DNA of 64,000 nucleotides, taken from positions 1,488,001-1,552,000 of the forward strand of contig DASYBM010000004.1 in assembly GCA_036500765.1 (NCBI GenBank), in the 5' to 3' direction. The translations under genes were made by a program, and so were the position numbers. The notes beneath the pieces were generated by a model. That model saw only the letters and a list, made by a program, of their open reading frames with translations, ran no database searches and was not told where the DNA came from. Shown here piece by piece: positions 5,076 through 19,277 of this stretch. Each line of letters begins with the position of its first letter. The stretch's first letter is position 1. The DNA is from Candidatus Sulfotelmatobacter sp. Its GTDB lineage: Bacteria; Acidobacteriota; Terriglobia; Terriglobales; Acidobacteriaceae.

Positions 5076-8000
5076 CTAGAAGCTGAATCGAGCGCCTAGG
5101 GTGACGACCCGGCCGGCAAGACCTCCGCTCTGCTGGTTGTTGGCGGTCGTAATCGTGCCGAAGTTTGCGGCGCTGATGTTATTCACGATGCCGAGTGGGT
5201 TGAAGTTCAGGTTGTTGAAGACATTGAAAGCGTCCATACGAATCTCAAACCTCGCGCCTTCTCCCAGAATTCGATTGTTGGGCAGACCGAATCCTTTCGT
5301 GAGGGTTAAATCGAGATCCCTGTATCCCGGACCATTGAATGAATTGCGGCGCAGCCCGATTTGGGGAAGCGCATTTCCAAAAGCCGAGCCGCTATAGGCG
5401 GTATAGCTTGGCGAGGTAAAGTAGGCGGCCGCGCCGTTGGGAAAGTTCGAATGAGCCACCGTCTTGAAAGCATCATTGCTGGTGTTGCTTCCTGCACCGC
5501 CGAGATAGACCGCGGGCAGTGCGCCGTAACCGCACGTGCCGCAATAAAGGCTGCCGCCGTTGACACTGACGTAGGGCGTCCAGGGGAATCCTGAGTGAAT
5601 GTTGAAAATGCCGCTGAGCGACCAGCCGCCGGCGATCTTTTCGATCCAGTCATGTTCACCGTGGAAGAAGACCGGCTGCCACATGCCAAAGAGCTTGAAC
5701 GCCTTGCCGACGTTGTAATCGGATCGCCCATAGTTCAGGTCGGGGTTATAGGGAAAGAATGGCAAGTTGCCCGGCGCCACTCCGGCGTCGAAGGGCGAAG
5801 AGGCCGTGTCGAGGCTCTTAGCCCAGGTGAACTGCGCATCTGCCATGAACTGGCGCGAGAAGTTGTGTTTCAATTCGGCCAGCAGGGCATTGTAGTTGGC
5901 GTGCCCGAGAAGACTCCAGTAATCTCCGCCGCCGATCTGCGGATTGAGCGTCAGTCCCTCGGCCGCTGGTGCCGCGTTGGTATTCTCGTGGAAAAAAATG
6001 TTGTGCGAGATGCTGCCTTGATATCCCACAGAGGCAACAAAGTTGTGGCCGAGGTCATACTGCACATCCGTCGAGTAGTGGTGGACCCGCGTGGTCGGAA
6101 GAGTGCCGGGGAAGACCGTCACTCCCACGGGGCATGAAACCGGACATCCTGGCGTTCCGGGCACGGGTAGTCCGTTCGGACCGAGCGGCGAGATGGTATT
6201 TTTGTTAGGCGGATAGCTGGTGAGCGAGTGGACGTCTGTTCCCACCGCATAAATGATCCCGGGATTCGGGGACCCAGGCGTTGGGATGGTGAATGTCGGA
6301 AAAATCACCAGGCCCGGATTGTTAACGACTCCCGAAGAAATCGAAATTTCCTCCTGGTTGTAGTTCAAGCCGTAGCCGCCGCGGAGAACGAATCTGTCAT
6401 GCAGAATCCCTGGGCTCCAGGCAAAGCCAATTTGCGGCCCGAAGTTATCTTTTTGGGCATTCCACGCATTGCTCTGTCTTGTGACGTTGAGCCCGGTCAG
6501 GTAGGCCGCCCCTGCGCCCGGATGGGCCACGAAGAGATTGTTTTCCTTGGAGCGAAGCGGGCCGAAGTAGGACCAGCGAAGTCCGGCATTGATGGTCAAG
6601 TTTTTGCGCAGCTTGTAATCGTCCTGCACAAAAATTCCCCAAATACCCTCGCGATCGTCCTGGCGCTGTGTGGTAAGACTCCCTGTGGTTGGATTGAAGC
6701 TGCCAGTTTCTTTCTGCGGCGCATCGTTCAGGAAATCCCAAAGATTAAAGAAATTGTAGCTGGGCACGCCGCCGCAATACGTGCAATCTTGCAGGTAAAA
6801 GAGCCGAGTCCACTCTCCGCCAACCTTGATGGCGTGGGGACCCACGATCTTCGTCGCAATATCCTTCATGGTGTAGGTCCACTGGTCAAGGATGCTGCCA
6901 ACGCTTGGTCCAAACTGTTCGAGAGCGACGCCGGCGCCCCCGATGGTGTCGATGTTGTCCACGGGCAGACCGACTGGAGATTGCGGATTCGAGGAAATTT
7001 CGTTCCAATGCCATCCGGCGGCGTTCATACGGAACTCGTTGAGCAGAGTCGGCGAGAAAGTATGGTTCCAGATTGCGGAGTAGGCCTCGTTGATCTGGTT
7101 GTGATGGAAAATGTCATAACCGCGAGCGCCATTATTGAAAGTGGTATTTTGCGGAACCCAGTAGATGGCAAAACCGATACGATCTTTGCCGGTAACATTC
7201 CAATCGAGCCGGCCGTTGTACTGGTTCTTCGAAAAGGTGCTGGTGCTTGCCGTAATGTAATTCGCGATATCGGGAGTGGTGCCGAGATTTTCGGGTCCGC
7301 CGCTGCCATCGCCGCCGGTGCCGGGATTAGTTGCGCTGGTCCAGCCGGGGTCCATTGTGCCCAGGCCGGTTGTTAAGGGAGTTCCGAGATTCAGGCCTCC
7401 CGTGACTGTGCGGCAATTGACTCCCTCAGTCAGACCGAAATCGGCGCAAGTGGCGGCGGTATTGATTCCTCGGTTGAGAATGCCGTTTCCGGGGAAGTTC
7501 AAATACGTGGAAGCGATGCTGCCGCTCGGCGCTAAAGCGGCAAACGCGGCGGTCTCACCCCATTGATTACCGATGTTCGTTTGGGCTTGCGGACTACGAA
7601 CCGTCTCCCACGCGAAAAAAGCGAAGACCTTGTTCTTAAGAATGGGGCCGCTGATACTGCCACCGAACTGATCGAAGAAGCTGTTATCCCGCAAGGCCTT
7701 TACATCGTTGCCGGCATATGGCTGATAAGCATCCAGGCCGGGGCGGTGCACGGTAAAGAAGGCGCTGCCGTGGAAGTGGTTGGTGCCGCTTTTGGACGTG
7801 ACCTGAATCTGGGCGCCGCTGAAACGCCCATTCTCGGCGTCATAGCCGTTGGAGACGACTTTAATGTTATCGACGGAATCTTCGGTAGGCGTAATGATGG
7901 TAGTTCCGCCCCACACCGCGCTGGCCGTGCTGATTCCGTCAATGCTGATGCCGTTGTTTTCGTACTGCTGCCCGGCCGCGACCGCCGCGGGTCCGTTCTC

Positions 8001-8588
8001 AGTCTGGAAAATACCTTGCGAGCCGCCGGTAGGTCCCGGGCCTTGCATCCCCGGAATGGGTTCCGCGCCGCCTCCTGCGCCCTGCGCTCCGTCTCCAAAA
8101 ACTCCGGGTGCGAGCTGAATCAACTGGAAGACGTCGCGACCAAACGACGGCATATGCTGCACCTGATTGTCGGTGACGACGCCATTGATGGAAGCCGTCT
8201 CGGTGTCCAGTAAGGGCGTGGTCTCGGCGTTAACGGTAACAGTTTGCGTTGCCGCGCCGACTTCAAGTTGGACGTTGACGGCGTTGGGCTGCTCTGGAAT
8301 GAGTTGCAGATTGTCGATGACTTTCTTCTGGAAGCCGGTTTTGTCCGCCTCCAGGCGGAAGCGGGCCGCGGCCAGGGCATTGAAGTTGAACACGCCCGCG
8401 TTATCGCTGACCCTGACCTGCTTCTCGCCTGTTTCCGGATTGGTCAACGTGAGGTTGGCGCCGGGAACTACCGCACCCGTAGTATCGGTGACTACGCCCT
8501 GAATGGAAGTTCGATACTGGGCTTGCGCTAGTACGGCTGAAAGCATCATCGACGCAACGAGCGATAAAACCCTTACGGACCGGCTCAT
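5076..8588 (-). CDS. TonB-dependent receptor-like outer-membrane protein with carboxypeptidase-regulatory-like domain (Oar type)
   Basis: Large (1170 residue) outer-membrane beta-barrel protein of the Oar/Cna-B-like TonB receptor group that is expanded in Acidobacteria. A signal peptide (residues 1-23, cut near AVLAQA) precedes a carboxypeptidase-regulatory-like beta-sandwich (about 25-110, with GVVTDTTGAVVPGANLTL). A plug region follows, then a long barrel ending in the aromatic C-terminal strand VTLGARFSF. An AGAGGG ribosome site lies five bases before the ATG. It is divergent from the secreted glycosidase gene at 8844 across a 255 bp gap, so a joint role in oligosaccharide uptake is plausible. 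No SusD-like partner is present and no TonB box was recognised. The ligand is not predictable from sequence. Confidence 0.85.
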   Translation of the reverse strand: MSRSVRVLSLVASMMLSAVLAQAQYRTSIQGVVTDTTGAVVPGANLTLTNPETGEKQVRVSDNAGVFNFNALAAARFRLEADKTGFQKKVIDNLQLIPEQPNAVNVQLEVGAATQTVTVNAETTPLLDTETASINGVVTDNQVQHMPSFGRDVFQLIQLAPGVFGDGAQGAGGGAEPIPGMQGPGPTGGSQGIFQTENGPAAVAAGQQYENNGISIDGISTASAVWGGTTIITPTEDSVDNIKVVSNGYDAENGRFSGAQIQVTSKSGTNHFHGSAFFTVHRPGLDAYQPYAGNDVKALRDNSFFDQFGGSISGPILKNKVFAFFAWETVRSPQAQTNIGNQWGETAAFAALAPSGSIASTYLNFPGNGILNRGINTAATCADFGLTEGVNCRTVTGGLNLGTPLTTGLGTMDPGWTSATNPGTGGDGSGGPENLGTTPDIANYITASTSTFSKNQYNGRLDWNVTGKDRIGFAIYWVPQNTTFNNGARGYDIFHHNQINEAYSAIWNHTFSPTLLNEFRMNAAGWHWNEISSNPQSPVGLPVDNIDTIGGAGVALEQFGPSVGSILDQWTYTMKDIATKIVGPHAIKVGGEWTRLFYLQDCTYCGGVPSYNFFNLWDFLNDAPQKETGSFNPTTGSLTTQRQDDREGIWGIFVQDDYKLRKNLTINAGLRWSYFGPLRSKENNLFVAHPGAGAAYLTGLNVTRQSNAWNAQKDNFGPQIGFAWSPGILHDRFVLRGGYGLNYNQEEISISSGVVNNPGLVIFPTFTIPTPGSPNPGIIYAVGTDVHSLTSYPPNKNTISPLGPNGLPVPGTPGCPVSCPVGVTVFPGTLPTTRVHHYSTDVQYDLGHNFVASVGYQGSISHNIFFHENTNAAPAAEGLTLNPQIGGGDYWSLLGHANYNALLAELKHNFSRQFMADAQFTWAKSLDTASSPFDAGVAPGNLPFFPYNPDLNYGRSDYNVGKAFKLFGMWQPVFFHGEHDWIEKIAGGWSLSGIFNIHSGFPWTPYVSVNGGSLYCGTCGYGALPAVYLGGAGSNTSNDAFKTVAHSNFPNGAAAYFTSPSYTAYSGSAFGNALPQIGLRRNSFNGPGYRDLDLTLTKGFGLPNNRILGEGARFEIRMDAFNVFNNLNFNPLGIVNNISAANFGTITTANNQQSGGLAGRVVTLGARFSF

Positions 8589-8843: not shown

Positions 8844-11138
8844 TTGAAGCGGCGCGGTTACGACTCCTCAATGACAGGAGGGAAGAGACGACGGCTCTGG
8901 CTTTTCGCCATGCTTTGTGTTTTCTGGGGCAGCGCGGGAGCGAATACTGAATATTATCGACACGTCGTTTTCGACAATAGTCTTACCCCGGACACTTACT
9001 TCTACAGTAGTGGGAAGGCAAGCGGCCCTAGTTTTCTAGAGCAGACAAATTCCCGTCTTCCGGTCGATACCAATATTTTCCTGACGCCACCCAACGCGCT
9101 CCGCCTGCAATGGCAGTCTGAGCCGGGGGGAGGGTGGGAAGCCGAAATCCGCGTGATTAATTTCCGCAACCGGCCGCCCGAATTCGCAGGACGCAATCTT
9201 TATTTCTGGTGTTTCACCACGCGAGCCATCGCGGCGGCTGATCTGCCGTCGCTGGTGCTGGCCGCCCGGTTCCCGGAATCCTTTACAGATCCTTTGCCTA
9301 TGGGCAAGTTCGCCGGCGATCTCCCGGCTGGGCGATGGGTTCAGGTGCGTATCCCGTTCAGAGAATTCCACGTAGCCGCCATACACGAGTTTCACCCACA
9401 GTATCTACAGACCATCGTGTTCCATCAGGGACGCGCCGACAGAGTTCGCCATACGCTGATCGTCGACGAACTGCGCATTGACGATGATGCAGCGGGCGAC
9501 GCGGGCGCGAAACTGCCTGCGCCAGACGGCGTGCGCGCCGTCGGCTTCGACCGGCATGTGGACGTGACCTGGAATCCGGTCAATGATTCTGCGCTCGGCC
9601 GTTATGTCATTTATCGGTCATTGGGACACAACCCGAAGCAAGGCAATACGACGGAGGAAGGCAAGAACTTCGAGCCGATCGGCATCCAGGTGCCGGGAAT
9701 CAATCGCTATACGGATTTTCTGGGCAAATCAGGAGTCACGGCTACTTATAAAGTTGCGGCGTCCGACGGACAATACCGCCAATCGGCTCTTTCGAATGGA
9801 GCGAGCGCGTCGACTCGAGAGTTCAGCGATGACGAACTTCTTTCCATGTTGCAGGAGGCCTGCTTTCACTACTATTGGGAGGGTGCCGATCCTGCTTCGG
9901 GTATGACTCTGGAAAACATTCCGGGGGATGACCGTGTGGTTGCCACTGGGGCCAGCGGCTTTGGCATCGCCGCGCTGGTGGTCGGCGTGGACCGCGGGTT
10001 CATTACTCGTGCGCAGGGGATTGAACGTTTGGCAAAAATCGTTGGCTTTCTTGAACGCGCGCCGCGCTATCACGGCGCCTGGTCGCATTTCATGGACGGC
10101 AGCACCGGGAAGACTCTGCCGGTGTTTGGCATGTTCGACAACGGCGGCGATCTGGTGGAGACTTCGTTTCTGGTGGAAGGGCTTCTGGTCGCCCGCCGGT
10201 ATTTTCACGGCAGCTCTGCTACCGAGCAGGATCTCGACCGTCGCATCACTCATCTCTGGGAGACAGTGGAATGGGATTGGTTCCGCGGCGATCCGAACCG
10301 CGATTTCATTTACTGGCACTGGTCTCCGGAATGGGCGCAGCACATTCACCATCCGTTGGTCGGCTTCAATGAAGTGATGATCACGTATCTGCTGGCGATG
10401 TCGTCGCCGACACACGGCGTGCCCGTCGAGATGTACTACTCCGGCTGGGCGGGGCAATCGCAAGAGGCGGTCGCCGACCGTGGCGGCTGGCCCAACCCTG
10501 TGCCTGGCGATCACTATTTCAATGGGCACACGTACTATGGAATCAAACTGGACGTTGGAATCGGTACGGGCGGCCCGTTGTTTTTCACCCATTATTCTTA
10601 TTTGGGTTTCGATCCGCAGCGCTTGCACGACCGCTATACGTCTTCGTACTTCGATAATTTCCGCAACATGGCCCTCATCAACCGCGCCTATTCGATTGCC
10701 AATCCAAAACATTTTTCCGGCTACGGTGCCGACGCATGGGGCCTGACGGCGAGCGACGGGCCGGACGGCTATGTCCCCCATGCGCCGGATGAGGCGGATG
10801 ATGACGGCACTCTCACTCTCACCGGCGCACTCGCATCTTTTCCCTACACGCCCGAACCATCGATGGCCGCCCTCAAGCATTACTATCGCGACTTGGGCGC
10901 TGAGCTTTGGGATATCTATGGTCCGAGAGATGCCTTCGACCCAGGGCGAAATTGGGTCTCACCGATCTATATGGGATTGAATCAAGCCCCGATCGTCGTG
11001 ATGATTGAGAACTACAGAACCGGGCTGATCTGGAAAAGCTTCATGGCGAATCCGGAGATTCCTGAGATGCTGCGCAAACTGGAAAAGCTCAGTCCGGCAG
11101 GAGAAGCGGAACACACTTTTCGACGCAATGCACATTGA
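8844..11138 (+). CDS. secreted glycoside hydrolase with GH144-like (PF10091 'glycoamylase') catalytic domain
   Basis: Exported protein of 764 residues. After a basic, hydrophobic leader (cut near SAGA) come a beta-rich N-terminal module (about 30-225, sugar-binding-like), a fibronectin type III-like segment (about 230-325) and an (alpha/alpha)6-type domain (about 330-750). The catalytic part carries [26 protein letters not shown] and an [13 protein letters not shown] segment, typical of the family formerly called glucoamylase and now GH144, whose characterised members cut beta-1,2-glucan. I keep the TTG at 8844 because GGGGAG (8830-8835) is correctly spaced before it; the ATG at 8871 is an alternative with no clear ribosome site. 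It overlaps the downstream lactonase gene by 11 bases, so the two are cotranscribed. True substrate uncertain. Confidence 0.82.
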
Positions 11139-11976
11139 CGCCCACCAGCATTTTTGGATCTACAGCCCGGCAGAGTATGCCTGGATTGACGATTCGATGT
11201 CCGCGTTGCGCAAGGATTTTCTGCCCGAAGACCTGAAGCCTGAATTAGAAAGCAATGGCTTTCAGGGATCGATTGCAGTTCAGGCGCGCCAAACGTTGGA
11301 AGAGACTCGCTGGCTTCTTGAGTTAGCGGCTCGGCATAGGCCGATTGTCGGAGTCGTGGGCTGGGCGGATCTGCGTTCGGCTGGGATACGGTCGCAGCTC
11401 AAGAGCCTGACTTCGAATCGGAAACTGGCGGGCGTCCGTCACGTCGTGCAGAGCGAACCCGACGACCGTTTTTTGTTGCAGCCGGAGTTTTTGCGGGGCG
11501 TGGCGGCACTCGAAGATTTCGGGCTTGCGTACGATATTCTGATCTACACGAAACATCTTCCGGTGGCCGCCGAGTTTGTCGGGCGCTTCCCGCGCCAGCG
11601 CTTTGTTCTCGATCACCTGGCCAAGCCGCCGATCAAGAGTGGCCAGGTGGAAGTATGGGCAGACGGAATCAAGCGCCTGGCTGAATTTCCGAATGTGTTT
11701 TGTAAATTGTCCGGGCTCGTCACTGAAGCGGACTGGAAGAGCTGGCGTCCCGAACAGATCGCGCCTTTTCTCGATGTCGCCTTTGCGTCGTTTGGTGCGG
11801 ATCGGTTGATGATTGGCTCCGACTGGCCGGTGTGCCTGGTGGCGGCAACGTACACGCAAGCGATACGGGCGGTGAATGCTTATCTTCTGGAGAAAACTCC
11901 CGCGATTCAGGAGGGTGTGCTCGGCGGCAATGCACGCCGCTTCTATCGGCTCGCCGATACTCCGATCGATGTGTGA
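11128..11976 (+). CDS. amidohydrolase-family sugar lactonase, probable L-fucono-1,5-lactonase
   Basis: Predicted to hydrolyse an aldonolactone, here most likely L-fuconolactone, to the open acid. The 282-residue protein is a TIM-barrel amidohydrolase of the COG3618 group. The N-terminal metal motif is [10 protein letters not shown], with DHLAKPP in the middle and the C-terminal IGSDWPVC Asp. It overlaps the upstream glycosidase gene by 11 bases and sits 53 bases before the UxaA-type dehydratase. Cj0487 of Campylobacter jejuni and the Xanthomonas fuconolactonase belong to this family in similar operons. L-rhamnono-lactonase activity is an alternative. Confidence 0.83.
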
Positions 11977-12029
11977 GAGGCCGAGTACTTTTCCCGCCGC
12001 ATGTTTTACAATGACCGCACGCAACCACG

Positions 12030-13676
12030 ATGCCTCGATCTCTTCTCCAACTTGACTCCAGCGATAACGTCTTGATCGCGCTAGAGGATCTGAAAGCCGG
12101 CGAACGGGTTGAGTTCGGAGAGCATACTTATGCCCTCGTCCGAAACGTTCCCGCCAAGCATAAATTTGCAATGCGACATTTCGACGAGGGAGACAGCGTC
12201 GTCATGTATGGCGTTCTGGTGGGAAAAGCCGTTAAGCCGATTCCGGCCGGAGAACTGTTAACTACGGTTAACATCCAACACCAGGCTTCGGCCTTCCACG
12301 AGCAGTCGGGCGAATACAGGTGGACGCCTCCCGATATTTCGCGGCGGAAGCAGCAAACTTTTCTGGGATATCGCCGCTCCGATGGGCAGGTGGGCACGCG
12401 AAACTATTGGCTCGTAGTTCCGCTCGTTTTTTGCGAGAACAAGAACATACAGGTTCTGAAGCAGGCTCTCGAAGAGGAGCTTGGCTTCGCTGCGCCGCAA
12501 CTTTACCGGCATCAGGTCGCAGAACTGGCACGACTGTATCGCGAAGGACGAATCAACAATGAGGGGCATGCGGCGCCGGTGGCAGCCGCTCCAGCCCAAC
12601 GCCGTCGACTCTTCGAAAACGTCGATGGCATCCGCTTTCTGGTGCACGAGGGCGGGTGCGGCGGCACACGCGAAGATTCCAACAACCTCTGCGGGCTTAT
12701 AGCCGGCTACATTCACCACCCGAATGTCGCCGGCGCGACTGTGCTGAGCTTGGGCTGTCAGCACGCGCAGATCGGCATTCTGCGCGAAGAAATTCGCAAG
12801 CGCAATCGCACATTCGATAAGCCATTGTTCATCCTCGAGCAGCAGCGCAGCGGATCCGAAGCTGCGATGGTGTCGGATGCCATCCAGCAGACGTTTCACG
12901 GGCTGGTTGAAGCCAACAAGGCGCAACGCACTCCGGCGTCGCTCGCCGATTTATGCGTGGGCTTGAAGTGTGGAGGGTCGGATGGTTTTTCCGGCATCTC
13001 GGCGAATCCTGCAATCGGCCATACCGCTGACTTGTTGACCGCTCTGGGCGGGCGAACGATTCTTTCGGAATTTCCGGAATTGTGTGGAGTGGAACAGGAA
13101 CTGATCAATCGCGCGGCGAGTAAGGAAGTTGGCAATCGTTTCATTCAACTCATGCGTGATTATGCGGCACGCGCCGCGGCCGTCGGCTCCGGTTTCGACA
13201 TGAATCCTTCGCCGGGCAATATGCGCGACGGACTTTTGACGGACGCCATGAAATCCGCCGGCGCGGCGAAGAAGGGTGGGACATCGCCGGTGACCGCAGT
13301 GCTTGACTATCCCGAATACTCGACCGAACAAGGATTGAATCTGCAATGCACTCCCGGCAACGACGTGGAGTGCGTCACCGCGCAAGTGGGCGCCGGCGCA
13401 AACGTCGTGCTGTTCACCACCGGCCTCGGTACTCCGACCGGCAACCCGGTTGCGCCGGTGATAAAGCTTTCCACTAATTCCGCTCTGGCGCAACGCATGC
13501 ACGACATCATCGACATCGACACTGGAGCCGTGGTCGCCGGCGAGAAAACGATCGCGCAGATGGGCGAGACGATTCTGGATCTCGTAATCGAGGTGGCGAG
13601 CGGTGAAGTACGGACGAAAGCCGAGCAGAAAGCTCAGGAAGATTTCATTCCCTGGAAACGAGGCGTATCGCTCTGA
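12030..13676 (+). CDS. UxaA-family sugar-acid dehydratase, probable L-fuconate dehydratase
   Basis: Altronate/galactarate dehydratase family protein of 548 residues. An N-terminal SAF domain (about 1-90, with LEDLKAGERVEFGE) is joined to the C-terminal UxaA catalytic domain, which shows LVHEGGCGGTRED, LCVGLKCGGSDGFSGISANPA and the terminal GEKTIAQMGETI segment. The conserved Cys residues fit the iron-dependent chemistry known for this family. D-altronate is the classical substrate, but the neighbours are an L-fucose-type lactonase, two SDRs and a RhaM-type mutarotase. This matches the C. jejuni fucose locus, where UxaA-like genes (Cj0482/Cj0483) occur. I therefore infer a 6-deoxy-sugar acid such as L-fuconate as substrate. 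No enolase-superfamily fuconate dehydratase is present in the window. Confidence 0.82.
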   Translation: MPRSLLQLDSSDNVLIALEDLKAGERVEFGEHTYALVRNVPAKHKFAMRHFDEGDSVVMYGVLVGKAVKPIPAGELLTTVNIQHQASAFHEQSGEYRWTPPDISRRKQQTFLGYRRSDGQVGTRNYWLVVPLVFCENKNIQVLKQALEEELGFAAPQLYRHQVAELARLYREGRINNEGHAAPVAAAPAQRRRLFENVDGIRFLVHEGGCGGTREDSNNLCGLIAGYIHHPNVAGATVLSLGCQHAQIGILREEIRKRNRTFDKPLFILEQQRSGSEAAMVSDAIQQTFHGLVEANKAQRTPASLADLCVGLKCGGSDGFSGISANPAIGHTADLLTALGGRTILSEFPELCGVEQELINRAASKEVGNRFIQLMRDYAARAAAVGSGFDMNPSPGNMRDGLLTDAMKSAGAAKKGGTSPVTAVLDYPEYSTEQGLNLQCTPGNDVECVTAQVGAGANVVLFTTGLGTPTGNPVAPVIKLSTNSALAQRMHDIIDIDTGAVVAGEKTIAQMGETILDLVIEVASGEVRTKAEQKAQEDFIPWKRGVSL

Positions 13677-13705
13677 ATCAAGGTCCGAAAAAGGCGAACA
13701 GCGGC

Positions 13706-14485
13706 GTGGGAGATTTTCGCCTCGATGGTAAGGTCGCGGTTGTAACCGGCGGCGGTAGCGGGATCGGGCGCGCGATCGCGCTGAGATTCGCCGGCAATGG
13801 TGCTGTGATTCGCATCTTGGATGTAGACGAGGCTGCCGCGGCTGCGACTTGCGATGAGATTATCGCTGCCGGCGGCATGGCTACTCCCCATCTTTGCGAT
13901 GTGACCAGTCAGGCTTTTGTGGAAGCCAGATTGGAGAAGCTGTTCAGCGTGGAGCGCGTTCACATCCTGGTCAACAATGCCGGGGTTTCGCACATCGGCA
14001 ATGTTGAGAGTACGACCAACGAAGACTTCGACCATGTTTTCCGCATAAACGTCAAAGGATTTTATAACTGCATGCACGCCATGGTCGGCCACATGAAGAA
14101 TTCGGGCGGAGGCGTGATCTTGAATATGGCGTCGATTGCCGGATCGGCGGGTCTGCCCGATCGATTCGCGTATGCCATGAGCAAAGGTGCGGTCATCGCG
14201 ATGACCTATTCCGTGGCGCGAGATTATCTGGCATATAACATTCGCTGCAATTGCATTTCGCCCGCCAGAGTTCACACGCCATTCGTCGACCATTATTTGC
14301 AGAAGGACTATCCGGGGCGCGAACAGGAAATGTTTGACCAGCTGGCCAGAGCGCAACCGATCGGAAGGATGGGAGAGCCTGAAGAGATTGCATCTCTTGC
14401 GCTGTTCTTATGTTCGGATGAAGCCGCGTTTATCACCGGCGTTGACTACCCAATCGATGGTGGATTTATGAATTTGCGCGGCTAG
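13706..14485 (+). CDS. SDR oxidoreductase, probable 2-keto-3-deoxy-L-fuconate dehydrogenase
   Basis: Classical short-chain dehydrogenase of 259 residues with the cofactor motif TGGGSGIGRAIA near residue 15, NNAG, and the catalytic Ser-Tyr-Lys set in MASIAGSAGLPDRFAYAMSK. The C-terminal region (CISPARVHTPFV and YPIDGGFMNLRG) resembles enzymes of oxidative fucose clusters that oxidise the 2-keto-3-deoxy acid with NAD. The GTG start at 13706 lies 29 bases after the dehydratase stop, so the genes are one operon. Assignment between this SDR and the next one to the two oxidation steps is by resemblance and order only. Confidence 0.75.
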   Translation: MGDFRLDGKVAVVTGGGSGIGRAIALRFAGNGAVIRILDVDEAAAAATCDEIIAAGGMATPHLCDVTSQAFVEARLEKLFSVERVHILVNNAGVSHIGNVESTTNEDFDHVFRINVKGFYNCMHAMVGHMKNSGGGVILNMASIAGSAGLPDRFAYAMSKGAVIAMTYSVARDYLAYNIRCNCISPARVHTPFVDHYLQKDYPGREQEMFDQLARAQPIGRMGEPEEIASLALFLCSDEAAFITGVDYPIDGGFMNLRG

Positions 14486-14502
14486 CGCATCGACTCATCC
14501 CT

Positions 14503-15285
14503 ATGGATTTGCAACTGAAAGACAAGGTGGCGATTGTAACCGGCGGCGCCAAAGGAATTGGCGCTGCGATTGTTCGGGCCTGTGCCGCCGAGGGCGCGAT
14601 TCCGGTAATTGTCGACCGCGATGAAGAAGCCGGCAAACAACTGCGAAGCGACCTGCAAAACAGCGGCCATTCCTGTGAAGTCATCACCGCCGAACTCGCC
14701 GCTGCCGAGAACTGCGCGAAAGCTATCGAGCAGATCGTTAAAACTTTTGGCCAGATTCATGCGCTCGTGAACAATGCCGGCCTCAACGACAAGGTCGGCC
14801 TCGAAAACGGAACCCCCGCCGAATATGCCGCTTCGCTCAACCGAAACCTGGTGCACTACTACAGCATGGCGCACTATGCACTGCCTTACCTGAAACTTTC
14901 GCGCGGAGCCATCGTGAATATCGGCTCCAAGACCGCCGTCACCGGGCAGGGCGGCACGTCAGGTTATGCGTCGTCGAAAGGAGCGGTCATGGCGCTAACC
15001 CGCGAGTGGGCAGTCGAACTTTTGTCCTACGGCATTCGGGTTAACACCGTGATGCCAGCAGAGGTGATGACGCCGCTTTATCGCAGTTGGCTCGACACGT
15101 TTTCAAATCCCGAAGAGAAGTTGAAGATCATCCTCTCCAAGATTCCTCTGGATCGGCGAATGACCACTGCGGAAGAGATTGCCTCAACCGTCATTTTTCT
15201 GATCTCCGCCAAGTCCAGTCACACCACCGGCCAGCATTTATTCGTCGATGGCGGATACGTTCACCTGGATCGCGCCCTCACATGA
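14503..15285 (+). CDS. SDR oxidoreductase, probable L-fucose dehydrogenase
   Basis: Second classical SDR of the operon (260 residues), starting 17 bases after the previous gene. It has TGGAKGIGAAI for the nucleotide, NNAG, and a Ser-Tyr-Lys active site in NIGSKTAVTGQGGTSGYASSK. The opening MDLQLKDKVAIVTGGAKGIG resembles FucX/Cj0485 and the Xanthomonas L-fucose dehydrogenase, which oxidise the free sugar to the lactone consumed by the amidohydrolase encoded at 11128. The RhaM-type mutarotase gene follows after 37 bases and would supply the right anomer. An alternative is a dehydrogenase for L-rhamnose or D-arabinose. Confidence 0.75.
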   Translation: MDLQLKDKVAIVTGGAKGIGAAIVRACAAEGAIPVIVDRDEEAGKQLRSDLQNSGHSCEVITAELAAAENCAKAIEQIVKTFGQIHALVNNAGLNDKVGLENGTPAEYAASLNRNLVHYYSMAHYALPYLKLSRGAIVNIGSKTAVTGQGGTSGYASSKGAVMALTREWAVELLSYGIRVNTVMPAEVMTPLYRSWLDTFSNPEEKLKIILSKIPLDRRMTTAEEIASTVIFLISAKSSHTTGQHLFVDGGYVHLDRALT

Positions 15286-15322
15286 AGGGGACCGCACGTT
15301 TCGCCGCTGTCACCGAGGCCCC

Positions 15323-15661
15323 ATGAAACGACGCTTTTGCCTGACTCTGGACCTGAAAGGCGATCCCAAGTTGATTGCCGAGTACAAACGCTATCACGAA
15401 AAGATATGGCCCGAAATTACGGGGAGTATCAAAGACTCCGGCATCGAAGACATGGAAATCTATCTGCTGGGAACGCGCATGTTTATGATCATGGAAGTGA
15501 ATGAATCGTTTTCGTTCGAGGCCAAGGCGCAGGCCGATCGACTCGACCCCAAGGTGCAAGAGTGGGAGACGCTGATGTCGACATTTCAGAAGTTGTTGCC
15601 GCAAGCGCAACCAGGCGAAAAATGGCTATTGATGGAAAGAGTGTTCAAATTGGAAGAATAA
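15323..15661 (+). CDS. RhaM/DUF718-family L-fucose (or L-rhamnose) mutarotase
   Basis: A 112-residue ferredoxin-like-fold protein of the L-rhamnose mutarotase family. It should interconvert alpha and beta anomers of a 6-deoxyhexose before dehydrogenation. Visible family features are YKRYHEKIWPEI, carrying the conserved His, the GIEDMEIYLLGTRMFMIMEV strand pair and the C-terminal segment around WETLMSTFQKLL. I chose the ATG at 15323 with GAGG just upstream; the frame is open further 5' but would overlap the SDR. The same family member (Cj0488 type) occurs in bacterial non-phosphorylating fucose operons, which this five-gene set mirrors. Confidence 0.85.
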   Translation: MKRRFCLTLDLKGDPKLIAEYKRYHEKIWPEITGSIKDSGIEDMEIYLLGTRMFMIMEVNESFSFEAKAQADRLDPKVQEWETLMSTFQKLLPQAQPGEKWLLMERVFKLEE

Positions 15662-15742
15662 ACGCGTTGCATTACTGCGGCCGAGCGTGGTCTGGATAAT
15701 GGGTGCTTTACTTTTTCCGCGGTACTTCTTACTTTAGTCGTG

Positions 15743-16408
15743 ATGCCGGCTTATTTCACCGCTGAGCTGTTTCAGTTTCTTACTCGTCTCAAGCGCAACA
15801 ACAAGCGCGAATGGTTCCAGGCCCATCAGGAAGAATGGGAAAGCCATGTGCGGCAGCCGGCCCTGCGTTTTATTACCGACTTCGCAGCACCCTTGGCAGA
15901 AATCTCTCCCCACCTTATCGCCGATCCTCGCCCGTCGCGCGGCTCCCTGTTTCGCATTTACCGCGACACACGCTTCTCGCACGACAAGAAGCCCTACAAG
16001 ACGCATATTGCCATGCGCTTTTCTCATGTGGGCAAAGATGTGCACTCTCCCGGTTTCTACCTGCATCTCCAACCTGGAGGCTGTTTCGCAGCGTCGGGCT
16101 TGTGGCATCCTGAGGCGCCGATTCTCTTGAAGGTACGAAACGCCATGGTTTCGCGGCCCGAGGAGTGGCGACCGGTCCGCAAACTTCTTAACTGGGACGA
16201 CGCCAGCAGACTGAGTCGGCCGCCCCGCGGCTTCCCTGGCGATCACGAATTCGTGGACGACCTGAAGCTGCGCGATCTGGGCAGCGCGTTGAACTTCACC
16301 GATTGGCAGGTATGCAGCCCGCGGTTCATGACGATCTTCGTTACGGCGTGCCGCAAAATGTCGCCTGTTGCCGCGTTCTTGAGCAGCGCTGTCGGACTAA
16401 AGTTCTAA
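15743..16408 (+). CDS. DUF2461 (TIGR02453) family protein
   Basis: Cytoplasmic 221-residue protein of the DUF2461 family, whose biochemical function is not established. Characteristic parts are FLTRLKRNNKREWFQAH near the start, LFRIYRDTRFSHDKKPYKTH in the middle and the PGFYLHLQPGGCFAASGLWHP core. The start is the ATG at 15743; a GTG directly before it would add one residue. It stands 81 bases after the mutarotase stop and its link to sugar metabolism is doubtful. The next gene is convergent. Confidence 0.85.
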   Translation: MPAYFTAELFQFLTRLKRNNKREWFQAHQEEWESHVRQPALRFITDFAAPLAEISPHLIADPRPSRGSLFRIYRDTRFSHDKKPYKTHIAMRFSHVGKDVHSPGFYLHLQPGGCFAASGLWHPEAPILLKVRNAMVSRPEEWRPVRKLLNWDDASRLSRPPRGFPGDHEFVDDLKLRDLGSALNFTDWQVCSPRFMTIFVTACRKMSPVAAFLSSAVGLKF

Positions 16409-16517
16409 GAGGAATCTCTTGCGCAAAGGTAGGCAGCCTCTTCGCACACCTTGAGTCGTTTTGCAACTTCGCATCAAAGTCGTTTTTCGATGCCTGCAAT
16501 TCCGTTTCGGACGATAC

Positions 16518-17249
16518 CTATGGTCCCGGTTTAACCTCTGTCGCTTTGCCATTCTGGTAGACGACGACGACCGGCTTGCCGCCGTTGGGATAGCGCAAGG
16601 TCTTGTCCGAAGAACTGCTTCCGCCGTCGGGTATGCCGATGCCGATCGCAAAGTCTGCCTGCATTTCGTTCATCCCGGGCCTCACCTCGTGTTGGGCCAC
16701 GGCCTGCCACACATCTGGCGACCAATGTTTGTACAGGTCGTGCGGATCCTCCACGAAAAACATTTCGTCAGAATAGATTTTGTATTGTTCATCCGCTTCG
16801 TACCCGATCGGCACGGCGTAGGTCTTCCCATCTTTTTCGAACACAGCCATCACTTGGCTGCGCTCGCCCTTGCCCACGGGCATGGCAGTTACTACGTCTT
16901 TTATCTGCAATTTTTCGATGGGAAGAAGCAGCCCGGCGCTGTGCGCGAAATCGACTTTACGGCTGACAGGGTCATAGCTGTTGTAGGTGTAGCGATAGCC
17001 TTCCTTTACCCACACGGGTTGCTGAGTCAATTGCTTCGCACTCTTCAGATCGTAAGGATGAAGCTTTTTCGGATTCACGTAGTAATCAGGATTGGAATAA
17101 CCGACGTTGAGCGCCTGTTTCTGCCTTTCATCCGCGACCTGATCTTCATGGCGTTGATAGAGAACGTAGCCCGCCCGCAATCCCGCGACCACCATTGCCA
17201 GCAGCAGAGCCAGTTGTAGTTTTTGCCTCGCCTCGGGAGTCATGGGCAA
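16518..17249 (-). CDS. membrane-anchored protein of unknown function with BamE/SmpA-like C-terminus
   Basis: A 243-residue protein with one N-terminal hydrophobic segment (about residues 11-28, LQLALLLAMVVAGLRAGYVL), so anchored to the inner membrane or exported. The region 45-165 has no family I recognise. The C-terminal 70 residues (PGMNEMQADFAIGIGIPDGG ... TLRYPNGGKPVVVVYQNGK) have the rhythm of SmpA/BamE-like domains, with 'PGM..Q' followed by a final strand carrying an 'NGK' turn. That is a resemblance only. The gene is divergent from the SufT-like gene, 77 bases away. Confidence 0.7.
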   Translation of the reverse strand: MPMTPEARQKLQLALLLAMVVAGLRAGYVLYQRHEDQVADERQKQALNVGYSNPDYYVNPKKLHPYDLKSAKQLTQQPVWVKEGYRYTYNSYDPVSRKVDFAHSAGLLLPIEKLQIKDVVTAMPVGKGERSQVMAVFEKDGKTYAVPIGYEADEQYKIYSDEMFFVEDPHDLYKHWSPDVWQAVAQHEVRPGMNEMQADFAIGIGIPDGGSSSSDKTLRYPNGGKPVVVVYQNGKATEVKPGP

Positions 17250-17326
17250 ACTTTACCAGATCGGCCGCTCTCGAGGCAGACACGCCGGGATCTGTGACGT
17301 TGTAAACTGGAAGAAGAGGTTCAACT

Positions 17327-17662
17327 ATGCCGACGATCACGGAGCAAGACGTTTTGAGCGCGCTGAGGAGTTGCTACGATCCCGAGATTCCGGTCAACAT
17401 CGTCGACCTCGGTCTGATCTACAAGGTGGATTTTGCGCCCGTGCCCGCCGAGAGTTCCGCAGACCCTAGCCAGGATGTCACTGTCGAGATGACCCTGACC
17501 GCGCAAGGCTGCCCAGAACATGTCAACATCAGCGCGCAGGTCAAATCGCGCATCGAACAGTTAGCCGGGGTGAGCAACTGCACCGTGAATGTTGTCTGGA
17601 CTCCGCCGTGGACTCCGGAGCGCCTTAGTCCGGACGCGAGAAAACAACTCGGCATCGAGTAA
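17327..17662 (+). CDS. SufT/MIP18-family iron-sulfur cluster maturation protein (DUF59)
   Basis: Small cytoplasmic protein (111 residues) of the DUF59 family, which helps Fe-S cluster assembly or transfer. The motif SCYDPEIPVNIVDLGLIYKV lies near the N-terminus and TLTAQGCPEHVNIS carries the conserved Cys. The C-terminal VVWTPPWTPERLSPDARKQLGI closely follows SufT/PaaD-like members. No suf or isc genes are adjacent here, so it is an isolated copy; a housekeeping Fe-S role is the most likely reading. The ATG at 17327 follows an AGAAGAGG ribosome site. Confidence 0.85.
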   Translation: MPTITEQDVLSALRSCYDPEIPVNIVDLGLIYKVDFAPVPAESSADPSQDVTVEMTLTAQGCPEHVNISAQVKSRIEQLAGVSNCTVNVVWTPPWTPERLSPDARKQLGIE

Positions 17663-17711
17663 GGCGGGCGGGCCTCCGACTTGAAGAGCCATGACGTCCG
17701 AGGTCCGCTTT

Positions 17712-17990
17712 TCATCCACCAATTTCTTCCCACGCTTCCATTGCGCTCCGGCCGGCAACCTCGCTGATCCGCTTGCCAGCTTGGCCAGCCATCTCCAGCA
17801 CGCGCATGCCGCGCTCAAAATAATCGGGCAGCGCGCGGCGCACTTCGTCGAACTTCTCGGGATACTCCGATGCCAGCACCGCGAGACCGACCCCGGTAGC
17901 CAACACTCCCGCGGGAAATCGCTTCTTGACAAAGAGAATGCCTGCGGTGCCCATTGCAGCGAGAACGACTGCTTTCTTCCAGCTATCCAT
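17712..17990 (-). CDS. small hypothetical membrane-associated protein
   Basis: A 92-residue protein, convergent with the SufT-like gene. Residues 6-45 are hydrophobic (KKAVVLAAMGTAGILFVKKR, then AGVLATGVGLAVLA), which may give one or two short membrane segments. The rest is an amphipathic helical tail (FDEVRRALPDYFERGMRVLE). Codon use and the defined N-terminus look genuine, and I associate similar small proteins with Acidobacteria, but no function is known to me. Confidence 0.6.
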   Translation of the reverse strand: MDSWKKAVVLAAMGTAGILFVKKRFPAGVLATGVGLAVLASEYPEKFDEVRRALPDYFERGMRVLEMAGQAGKRISEVAGRSAMEAWEEIGG

Positions 17991-18119
17991 AACTCTCCTC
18001 TAAAGCACGAAACTTAGTTGGGGATAGTACGCCGCCGCTGAACCCTCTCAAGAAGCGTACCAGACATGGCATCCCGCATCGCTTGGATGCACTTTATACT
18101 TCGTCGTGTTGGAGGGCCC

Positions 18120-19277
18120 ATGTTCATTTCGCGATTCCGTTGGACCGCAGTCATGGTGACGATCATTCTAGCCGCTAACGCCGCCGCGCAGTCCAAGCCG
18201 CGAGCCCGCGACCTTGGCGTCCCTTTCGATGGCACGCCGGGGCCAAATAACGCAATCACGGATGTGCGGGGGGTTGAGGTTGGCAATACGACGCTCATCT
18301 CCGGCGAAGGCAAGCTTGAAGTCGGCAAGGGACCGGTTCGCACCGGCGTCACCGCCATTCATCCCCGAGGCAAAGGCAGCAACGATGCCGTTTTCGCCGC
18401 CTGGTTCACCTTAAACGGCAACGGCGAAATGACTGGCACCACGTGGGTCGAGGATTCCGGGTTTCTCAACGGGCCGGTGATGATCACGAACACGCACAGC
18501 GTCGGAGTCGTGCGCGACGCCGTCATCGCCTGGAAAGTCAGGCACGGCACACCGGACATGGAGGGTTACTGGTGGTCGCTACCGGTAGTCGCCGAAACCT
18601 GGGATGGCGATCTCAATGACATCAACGGATTTCATGTTAAGCCTGAAGATGCGTTTCATGCGCTCGACACCGCCCACTCCGGCCCTGTTGAGGAAGGCAA
18701 CGTCGGCGGCGGGACAGGCATGATCTGCAATGAGTTCAAAGGCGGCATCGGCACTTCCTCTCGCATTCTCGATGGCAAATCGGGTGGTTACACTGTTGGC
18801 GTACTGGTGCAGTGCAACTACGGAGCGCGCGAGCAGCTTCGGATCGCGGGAGTGAACGTGGGCCGCGAGATTCCCGAGCATGCCGGCCGACAGCAGGATA
18901 TTGGTTCCATCATTGTGGTCGTCGCCACCGATGCGCCGCTCATCCCGACTCAACTGAAGCGGATAGCAAGGAAAGTCTCGCTCGGCCTCGGCCGCGACGG
19001 CAGTTACTCGGGCGACGGATCGGGGGACATCTTCATTGCTTTCTCTACTGCGAATCCTGGCGCGGTCGGCACCAAGGGACTCAGGCAGCTCACGATGCTT
19101 CCCAACGATTCGCTTAACCCGATTTTCCTGGCGACAGTGCAGGCCACTGAAGAAGCGGTCGTCAACGCGATGGTGGCCGCCGAAACTATGACCGGCATCA
19201 ATAATCACACGGTAGTCGCACTGCCCCACGATCGGCTTCGCGAGGTGTTGAAAAAATACAACCGCCTAAGCAAGTAG
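18120..19277 (+). CDS. exported P1-family peptidase (DmpA/BapA-type aminopeptidase)
   Basis: N-terminal nucleophile hydrolase of the DmpA family (peptidase family P1), which removes N-terminal residues from small peptides or beta-peptides after self-cleavage. A signal peptide (MFISRFRWTAVMVTIILAA, cut near NAAAQ) predicts export. The self-cleavage site is recognised in DIGSIIVVVATDAPL, where Ser263 (codon at 18906) would become the nucleophile of the beta chain. EGNVGGGTGM and GDGSYSGDGSGDIFIAFST are further family blocks. I chose the ATG at 18120, preceded by GGAGGG (18111-18116), over the ATG at 18066, because it puts the signal peptide at the N-terminus. The specificity is not readable. 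Confidence 0.88.
   Translation: MFISRFRWTAVMVTIILAANAAAQSKPRARDLGVPFDGTPGPNNAITDVRGVEVGNTTLISGEGKLEVGKGPVRTGVTAIHPRGKGSNDAVFAAWFTLNGNGEMTGTTWVEDSGFLNGPVMITNTHSVGVVRDAVIAWKVRHGTPDMEGYWWSLPVVAETWDGDLNDINGFHVKPEDAFHALDTAHSGPVEEGNVGGGTGMICNEFKGGIGTSSRILDGKSGGYTVGVLVQCNYGAREQLRIAGVNVGREIPEHAGRQQDIGSIIVVVATDAPLIPTQLKRIARKVSLGLGRDGSYSGDGSGDIFIAFSTANPGAVGTKGLRQLTMLPNDSLNPIFLATVQATEEAVVNAMVAAETMTGINNHTVVALPHDRLREVLKKYNRLSK

Follow-up and report, generated by a model that had tools for sequence, protein, structure and literature searches.

A predicted oxidative L-fucose operon with a UxaA-family dehydratase in Candidatus Sulfotelmatobacter sp. (Acidobacteriota)

The operon and its predicted enzymes

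Which sugar is degraded by a compact gene cluster built around a UxaA-family dehydratase in Candidatus Sulfotelmatobacter sp., and how does its pathway end? The window analyzed here is the whole stretch of 64,000 nucleotides (assembly GCA_036500765.1, contig DASYBM010000004.1, positions 1,488,001 to 1,552,000 of the forward strand). An earlier note, made from the sequence alone, had read the genes at 11128-15661 as a non-phosphorylating L-fucose-type operon. Its five open reading frames (ORFs) are indeed intact, all on the + strand and head to tail, with intergenic spacings of 53, 29, 17 and 37 bases, and the Pfam matches of all five proteins are above the gathering cut-off. In our reading, this operon probably serves to oxidize L-fucose to pyruvate and L-lactate without phosphorylation (route 3). 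Protein families, gene order, residue patterns and the absence of fucP (the permease gene) from the operon are read directly from the DNA.

11128..11976, + strand: probable L-fucono-1,5-lactonase (FucB), an amidohydrolase (Amidohydro_2; NF052480 287.5 bits, cut-off 400)
12030..13676, + strand: UxaA/GarD-family sugar-acid dehydratase, predicted L-fuconate dehydratase (FucC) (GD_AH_C 319.8 bits, GD_AH_second, SAF)
13706..14485, + strand: SDR1, a short-chain dehydrogenase/reductase (SDR), predicted L-2-keto-3-deoxyfuconate 4-dehydrogenase (FucF), type-4-like (adh_short; residue pattern)
14503..15285, + strand: SDR2, probable L-fucose 1-dehydrogenase (FucA) (adh_short; NF052481 413.2 bits, cut-off 300)
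15286..15322, + strand: 37-base gap, site of fucP (~1.3 kb) in five congeners (congener comparison)
15323..15661, + strand: RhaM-family mutarotase, predicted L-fucose mutarotase (FucM) (PF05336 (rhaM) 114.5 bits); the mechanical ORF start is 15248, and the start conserved in congeners is the ATG at 15323

SDR2 is above the cut-off of the NCBI L-fucose dehydrogenase equivalog (FucosDh), and its best match in the Protein Data Bank (PDB) is 4gkb (315 bits), followed by 6drr (254.4 bits). The sole NCBIfam match of the lactonase is the L-fucono-1,5-lactonase model and its best PDB match is 4dlf (201.8 bits), while the mutarotase is closest to the L-fucose mutarotase 7byu (44.8 bits), above rhamnose mutarotases. 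We take 4gkb and 4dlf to be Burkholderia multivorans proteins and 6drr to be from Campylobacter.

SDR1 is given by Pfam and NCBIfam as an SDR without clear subfamily, and its assignment was based on substrate-binding positions. In the Herbaspirillum enzyme 8XWK, L-2-keto-3-deoxyfuconate (L-KDF) is described as bound by Arg148, Thr183, Arg192, Arg214 and Trp252; the type 4 L-KDF dehydrogenases (L-KDFDH) are defined as R-R-F-T at 148/183/192/214, and NAD-dependent L-KDF oxidation was assayed for the type 4 enzyme of Sphingobacterium mizutaii (PMC11199699). Transferred through a type 1 homologue, the five positions hold R, R, Y, A and F in SDR1. We aligned 35 orthologues, the window included (minimum 50% identity across more than 200 residues, together with named ones; L036 and L091, which gave shorter pieces, were excluded and the type 1 row was not counted). 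Arg at 148 and 183 and Phe/Tyr at 192 were present in 35/35, Arg at 214 in 0/35 and Phe at 252 in 34/35, the patterns being RRFS (15), RRYS (7), RRYA (5), RRFT (4), RRYT (2) and RRFA (2). The Rufibacter orthologue, 59.8% identical to SDR1, is itself R-R-F-T. Residue pattern and gene context together suggest that SDR1 is most likely a KDF 4-dehydrogenase, which gives a likely function to the second SDR, left open in the earlier note. With SDR1 read as type-4-like, the operon most likely follows the oxidation/hydrolysis route and not the aldolase route; the note's suspicion that the ending departs from aldol cleavage thus gains a concrete form, a KDF 4-dehydrogenase plus a hydrolase. The L-fucose reading as such is supported, as a prediction, by the SDR2 cut-off, the SDR1 class and the gene context.

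The SAF, GD_AH second and C domains, together with four conserved cysteines (Cys135, Cys210, Cys243 and Cys314, in 72/72 aligned rows), place the dehydratase in the UxaA/GarD superfamily. Four conserved Cys of this family have been named as likely iron ligands (PMC6336799), and those of the window enzyme presumably correspond to them. It is the sole GD_AH_C match in the genome. The earlier claim that it replaces an enolase-type enzyme also stands, within the range of the search: the two over-cut-off MR_MLE_C proteins of the genome pass the MenC and ManD models, so an enolase-superfamily L-fuconate dehydratase of the FucD type was not found between them (a third, sub-cut-off match was left out). 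A phosphorylating route was discarded, as the sole Fucose_iso_C protein matches only the sulfoquinovose isomerase NCBIfam model (86.3 bits, cut-off 700); fucK was not searched for.

In the proposed pathway, the mutarotase would supply the right anomer of L-fucose, which SDR2 would oxidize to L-fucono-1,5-lactone and the lactonase would open to L-fuconate. The UxaA-family iron enzyme would dehydrate L-fuconate to L-2-keto-3-deoxyfuconate, and SDR1 would oxidize C4 to give 2,4-diketo-3-deoxyfuconate. This acylpyruvate would be split into pyruvate and L-lactate by a hydrolase encoded outside the operon, for which the best candidate is an FAH-family protein on contig C9 (see below). The fucose itself would probably be freed by a GH29 fucosidase and enter through a FucP paralogue encoded elsewhere in the genome. 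The substrates of all enzymes, the identity of the hydrolase and the transport are predicted from family, residue and context data. Acidobacteriota would thereby gain an oxidative L-fucose operon that is complete but for its final enzyme.

Congeners, fucose supply and the last step

The dehydratase was found near full-length, at 69% identity or more, in 15 of the 37 genomes of the genus (own included) and as a fragment in one. The order lactonase, dehydratase, SDR1, SDR2, FucP, mutarotase is present at L024, L025, L026 and L030, and L031 has the same gene set, including fucP, with the lactonase placed after SDR1. L033 carries the set without fucP, as in the window. Parts of the operon run to a contig end at L027, L029, L034 and L036, and L028 and L037 end at the dehydratase. 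The dN/dS of the five genes against congeners is 0.02-0.11 (dS is above 1, so these ratios are rough), which fits an operon kept in use. Given the gene order kept in congeners and the low dN/dS, the arrangement is more than chance. The genes are presumably co-transcribed; a promoter/terminator scan returned fewer sites than in shuffled sequence. A polygalacturonase read by eye before the dehydratase of G027 was dropped, since it has no Pfam match.

At L024, fucP overlaps the SDR2 stop and the mutarotase start. The window has the 37-base gap at this site, and the bases before the mutarotase resemble the fucP 3' end of L024 and L026, so the operon's own fucP seems to have been lost. A permease and a cleavage enzyme are absent from the cluster, as the earlier note had said, no aldolase being present among the scanned proteins. 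The note had also called for a genome-wide search for a FucP-like permease and a 2,4-diketo-3-deoxyfuconate hydrolase, which succeeded for the former and gave no hydrolase of the FucG branch. An intact FucP (411.6 bits, TIGR00885 cut-off 280.4) is encoded outside the operon, on contig C2. It is 76-77% identical to the FucPs of G020, G022 and G031, each 262 bases from a GH29 match, and 81% identical to that of G030, 315 bases from GH29; the G030 operon (L033) is likewise the one without fucP. In the genome under study, the fucP gene adjoins a PepX/S15-type peptidase gene and not a fucosidase gene, and one GH29 alpha-L-fucosidase match is on another contig. Thus, the genome retains a FucP of the fucosidase type although the operon copy is missing, and uptake through this paralogue is proposed because the operon's own copy was lost. 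Within the genus, GH29 is present in 14/16 genomes with the dehydratase (one of the 16 having only a gene fragment) versus 6/21 without (Fisher p 0.00065, relatedness not corrected). Among the 15 congeners (own included) with a completeness of at least 90% and a contamination of no more than 5%, the counts are 6/6 and 2/9.

The hydrolase search gave two PF01557 proteins, on contigs C9 and C16. Neither groups in the FucG branch: the C9 protein falls outside it and the C16 protein groups with a Runella protein. Relatives of the C9 protein occur at E ≤ 0.001 in 59/61 genomes searched and at 69% identity or more in 35/37 genomes of the genus, and on this near-universal presence it was marked as housekeeping. 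G003, G004, G006, G022, G027, G030 and G034 encode FucG-branch proteins outside the operon stretches that were fetched. In L092, L093 and Granulicella, the FAH proteins of the fucose stretches are likewise outside the branch, which is therefore no strict test, and more than one kind of FAH may catalyze this reaction. G012 (98% complete, with the full operon) has only the same two FAH kinds as the window genome. The C9 housekeeping FAH is the best candidate for the terminal hydrolase, an assignment whose chances we put at about even. FAHD1 hydrolyses acylpyruvates and was proposed as the mammalian enzyme; a 2026 review considers this role implausible, given its mitochondrial location, and direct evidence lacking (PMC13406643). 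On the product side, a LdhH/LutB-like lactate-oxidation protein (LUD domain 135.6 bits, under both NCBIfam cut-offs) is encoded at 1-2148 of L091, whose 20-kb stretch also holds an acidobacterial fucose cluster; this fits L-lactate as the product there.

Gene context across the dehydratase lineage

A genome scan with the dehydratase gave at least 585 confirmed stretches, of which the best 80 were kept (L088-L167, 54-77% identical; many end at contig ends). Among these 80 loci, an SDR1 orthologue is present at 21, UxaC at 26, both at none and neither at 33, the UxaC label meaning a match on either strand, however far off within the stretch (at L094, L095 and L097 it is 3-5 kb off on the opposite strand). 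UxaC took the place of a tagaturonate-reductase reference as galacturonate label because the latter had matches in marine clusters with fucose genes too. The same BLAST test places an FAH-family hydrolase at 19/21 SDR1 loci (not L088 and L091) and at 0/59 loci without SDR1. SDR1, SDR2, lactonase, mutarotase, FAH and FucP occur all together at 9/80.

A context tree was built from 30 fucose-context rows (the 21 loci, the window, seven congeners and Hymenobacter) and 26 UxaC rows. A single clade of fucose-context dehydratases was rejected (AU p 2.39e-8, 56-row tree), and the tree needs five context changes, at least three of them forced by starred branches. The window dehydratase groups with Acidobacteriota; its starred branch comprises 13 rows, all of fucose context. 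The non-monophyly suggests repeated substrate switching in this lineage of ~548-aa dehydratases.

An exploratory scan of all alignment columns, with gene context as proxy for substrate, pointed to two positions (window numbering), picked post hoc and with p values uncorrected for relatedness or column number. Position 245, two residues after the ligand-like Cys243, is His in 27/30 fucose-context rows and 4/26 UxaC rows (three Chitinophaga and L150), and with these four it was rejected as a strict fuconate marker. Position 380 is Ala in 26/30 and 1/26, respectively. We tentatively propose, as an idea that falls somewhat short of probable, that the ~548-aa UxaA lineage changed its substrate from altronate to L-fuconate or back three or more times. 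Each change would have come about by recruitment into an operon for fucose or galacturonate and would involve few parallel residue changes near the iron (candidates His/Asn 245 and Ala380). If true, the lineage would offer natural replicates of the substrate change of a sugar-acid dehydratase, and the family pattern supplies residues that can be tested for such switching. No paper on this context switching was found by title or abstract in the open-access full-text literature.

The stretches L151, L154, L156 and L161 combine the dehydratase with matches to L-fucose dehydrogenase and FucP. They also encode a zinc alcohol dehydrogenase and a protein resembling tagaturonate reductase, and have no SDR1 or FAH match; possibly these have a different pathway ending.

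Alternative readings, known systems and flanking genes

Several observations weigh against the L-fucose reading or parts of it. At the enzyme level, the R-R-Y-A of SDR1 differs from the type 4 pattern, SDR1 shares 39% identity with a type 1 enzyme, and its best PDB relatives are 7djs (160 bits) and 4dqx (158.8), 8xwk ranking twelfth (144.4); 4DQX has been placed near type 2 L-KDFDH (PMC11199699). The lactonase is below its equivalog cut-off (287.5 versus 400), as is the genome's FucP with the stricter NF007524 (389 versus 427). The genome has no FucG-branch FAH for the last step of the pathway. Full sets are not universal in the genus, since L032 (G027) has the dehydratase, lactonase and mutarotase without SDR1 and SDR2, and L035 (G019) the dehydratase alone, with no contig end cutting next to the gene in either case. 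In a 97-row tree, five rows without SDR1 (L014, L090, L106, L138 and L139) fall inside the Acidobacteriota branch. The gene before the lactonase, GH144-like, has no known link to fucose. Finally, the genome has UxaC and no other GD_AH_C protein, and therefore the dehydratase might also serve altronate.

This last point leads to the reading that the enzyme is, wholly or in part, the altronate dehydratase of D-galacturonate breakdown, with a secondary role for fucose, for which the 26/80 loci of the lineage with UxaC in the fetched stretch would also speak. The only UxaC match of the genome is on C2 and thus not beside the dehydratase (the window is on C4), and it adjoins ManD, a PfkB kinase and a KDPG/KHG aldolase, a set that fits D-glucuronate; its 20-kb stretch has no match to the tagaturonate-reductase reference, for which the rest of the genome was not searched. 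Together with the lack of any locus having both UxaC and SDR1 and with the window row lying in the fucose-context branch, this makes the altronate reading very improbable. The same enzymes of the operon could instead degrade D-arabinose, with alpha-ketoglutarate formed in the end by the C16 FAH and an aldehyde dehydrogenase, because D-arabinonate and L-fuconate share their C2-C4 configuration. A UxaA-family D-arabinonate dehydratase also uses L-fuconate (5.6% relative activity, PMC6336799), L-KDFDH also binds D-KDP (PMC11199699), and Runella combines a 54% identical dehydratase with an aldehyde dehydrogenase and an FAH protein 58% identical to that of C16. SDR1 would be superfluous in that route, the links to fucosidase and FucP favor fucose, and the C16 FAH gene is apart from the operon, so we consider a D-arabinose operon very unlikely. 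The Runella and C16-type FAH proteins are presumably 2-keto-3-deoxyarabinonate dehydratases.

A third possibility keeps L-fucose and changes the ending, with aldol cleavage to pyruvate and L-lactaldehyde by a DHDPS-family aldolase encoded elsewhere and SDR1 otherwise employed. DHDPS-family matches do occur on C16, C2 and C4, and on an E. coli megaplasmid a dehydratase of 44-46% identity has a DHDPS-family gene and an MFS transporter for neighbors. The neighbors of the C2 protein resemble, by eye, hydroxyproline breakdown; the C4 match, at 308 kb, is ~1.19 Mb off, and the eight proteins scanned at 8844-19274 include no such aldolase. Because SDR1 groups with the KDF 4-dehydrogenases and no aldolase is clustered, aldol cleavage is not our first choice and appears very unlikely. 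The plasmid cluster (L083, NZ_CP128951.1 365789-383378), which also holds an IclR regulator and is followed by an IS4-like transposase, may be an aldolase-route sugar-acid cluster.

Taken as an oxidative L-fucose operon, the locus can be set beside known systems. The earlier note matched the set to the Campylobacter locus; that this locus fits best was not supported, the close matches found being Bacteroidota and Acidobacteriota clusters. The C. jejuni fuc locus, compared by description, shares a dehydrogenase FucX (Cj0485), hydrolase, mutarotase and dehydratase (Cj0483), and differs in a DapA-type Cj0481 (the basis of its authors' model), two MFS transporters, a second dehydrogenase (Cj0489) and a regulator (PMC6946681). 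Route 3 of Sphingobacterium mizutaii with its type 4 L-KDFDH (PMC11199699) and the Bacteroidota clusters have the same SDR1 class, SDR2, lactonase and mutarotase, and the sister clusters that were fetched also have a UxaA-family dehydratase. Compared with these, the window operon lacks fucP and an FAH hydrolase, has R-R-Y-A instead of R-R-F-T, and has the GH144-like gene overlapping its start. On a Hymenobacter tibetensis plasmid, a divergent AraC gene is followed by co-directional genes for the UxaA-type dehydratase, SDR1, FAH hydrolase, SDR2 and fucP; the mutarotase is on the opposite strand and no lactonase is listed in the stretch. A Rufibacter tibetensis plasmid (L044) has fucP, SDR1, FAH, lactonase, SDR2, mutarotase and alpha-L-fucosidase, with a 120-residue dehydratase match at 9865-10224, between fucP and SDR1, that is probably a truncated gene.

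The Burkholderia multivorans cluster (L047) shares the lactonase, L-fucose dehydrogenase and KDF dehydrogenase, and also has an FAH hydrolase in the stretch. It differs in having an enolase-family gene (56.6% identical to the Granulicella one) instead of UxaA, and a type 1 KDFDH (R-T-R-R). Xanthomonas has a route 3 cluster of this kind. The Xanthomonas-type pathway uses, unlike the window operon, an enolase-superfamily L-fuconate dehydratase (PMC11199699). UxaA-family enzymes acting on L-fuconate-like substrates, set beside the window enzyme by description only, are reported from Herbaspirillum, Paraburkholderia and Acidovorax (PMC6336799). Oxidative L-fucose pathways, UxaA-family L-fuconate enzymes and type 4 KDF dehydrogenases are thus already in print (PMC6336799, PMC11199699); the pathway is known, and the acidobacterial operon with its apparent fucP loss is a new instance. 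A search of the open-access full-text literature for fucose or fuconate with Acidobacteria or Bacteroidetes returned, by title and abstract, only a groundwater metabolite study. Watanabe 2019 (Mol. Microbiol.) reportedly treats proteins of the D-altronate dehydratase family that serve in the pathways of L-fucose, L-galactose and D-arabinose; Watanabe 2020 (J. Biol. Chem.) also belongs to this literature.

Upstream of the lactonase is one further co-directional gene, of uncertain membership in the operon:

8871..11138, + strand: PF10091 (GH144-like glycoside hydrolase) gene (Pfam Glycoamylase 222.5 bits; alternative ORF start TTG 8844)

Its final 11 bases overlap the lactonase start. The best PDB match of its product is 5z06 (BDI_3064, 675.6 bits), followed by the endo-beta-1,2-glucanase 5gzh (437.4 bits), and the genome has two further PF10091 matches. 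No match was found in 14 congener operon stretches, and distant homologues (30-32%) lie within the fucose stretch of two Parapedobacter loci (L127 and L133); a link between GH144 and fucose was set aside. Divergent from this gene, a large protein, by eye a TonB-dependent/Oar-like receptor, is encoded at 5076-8588 on the - strand. Downstream of the mutarotase, 15661-15740 is without the HrpB-type helicase gene (HrpB_C in L024) that separates the mutarotase from a DUF2461 gene in L024-L026.

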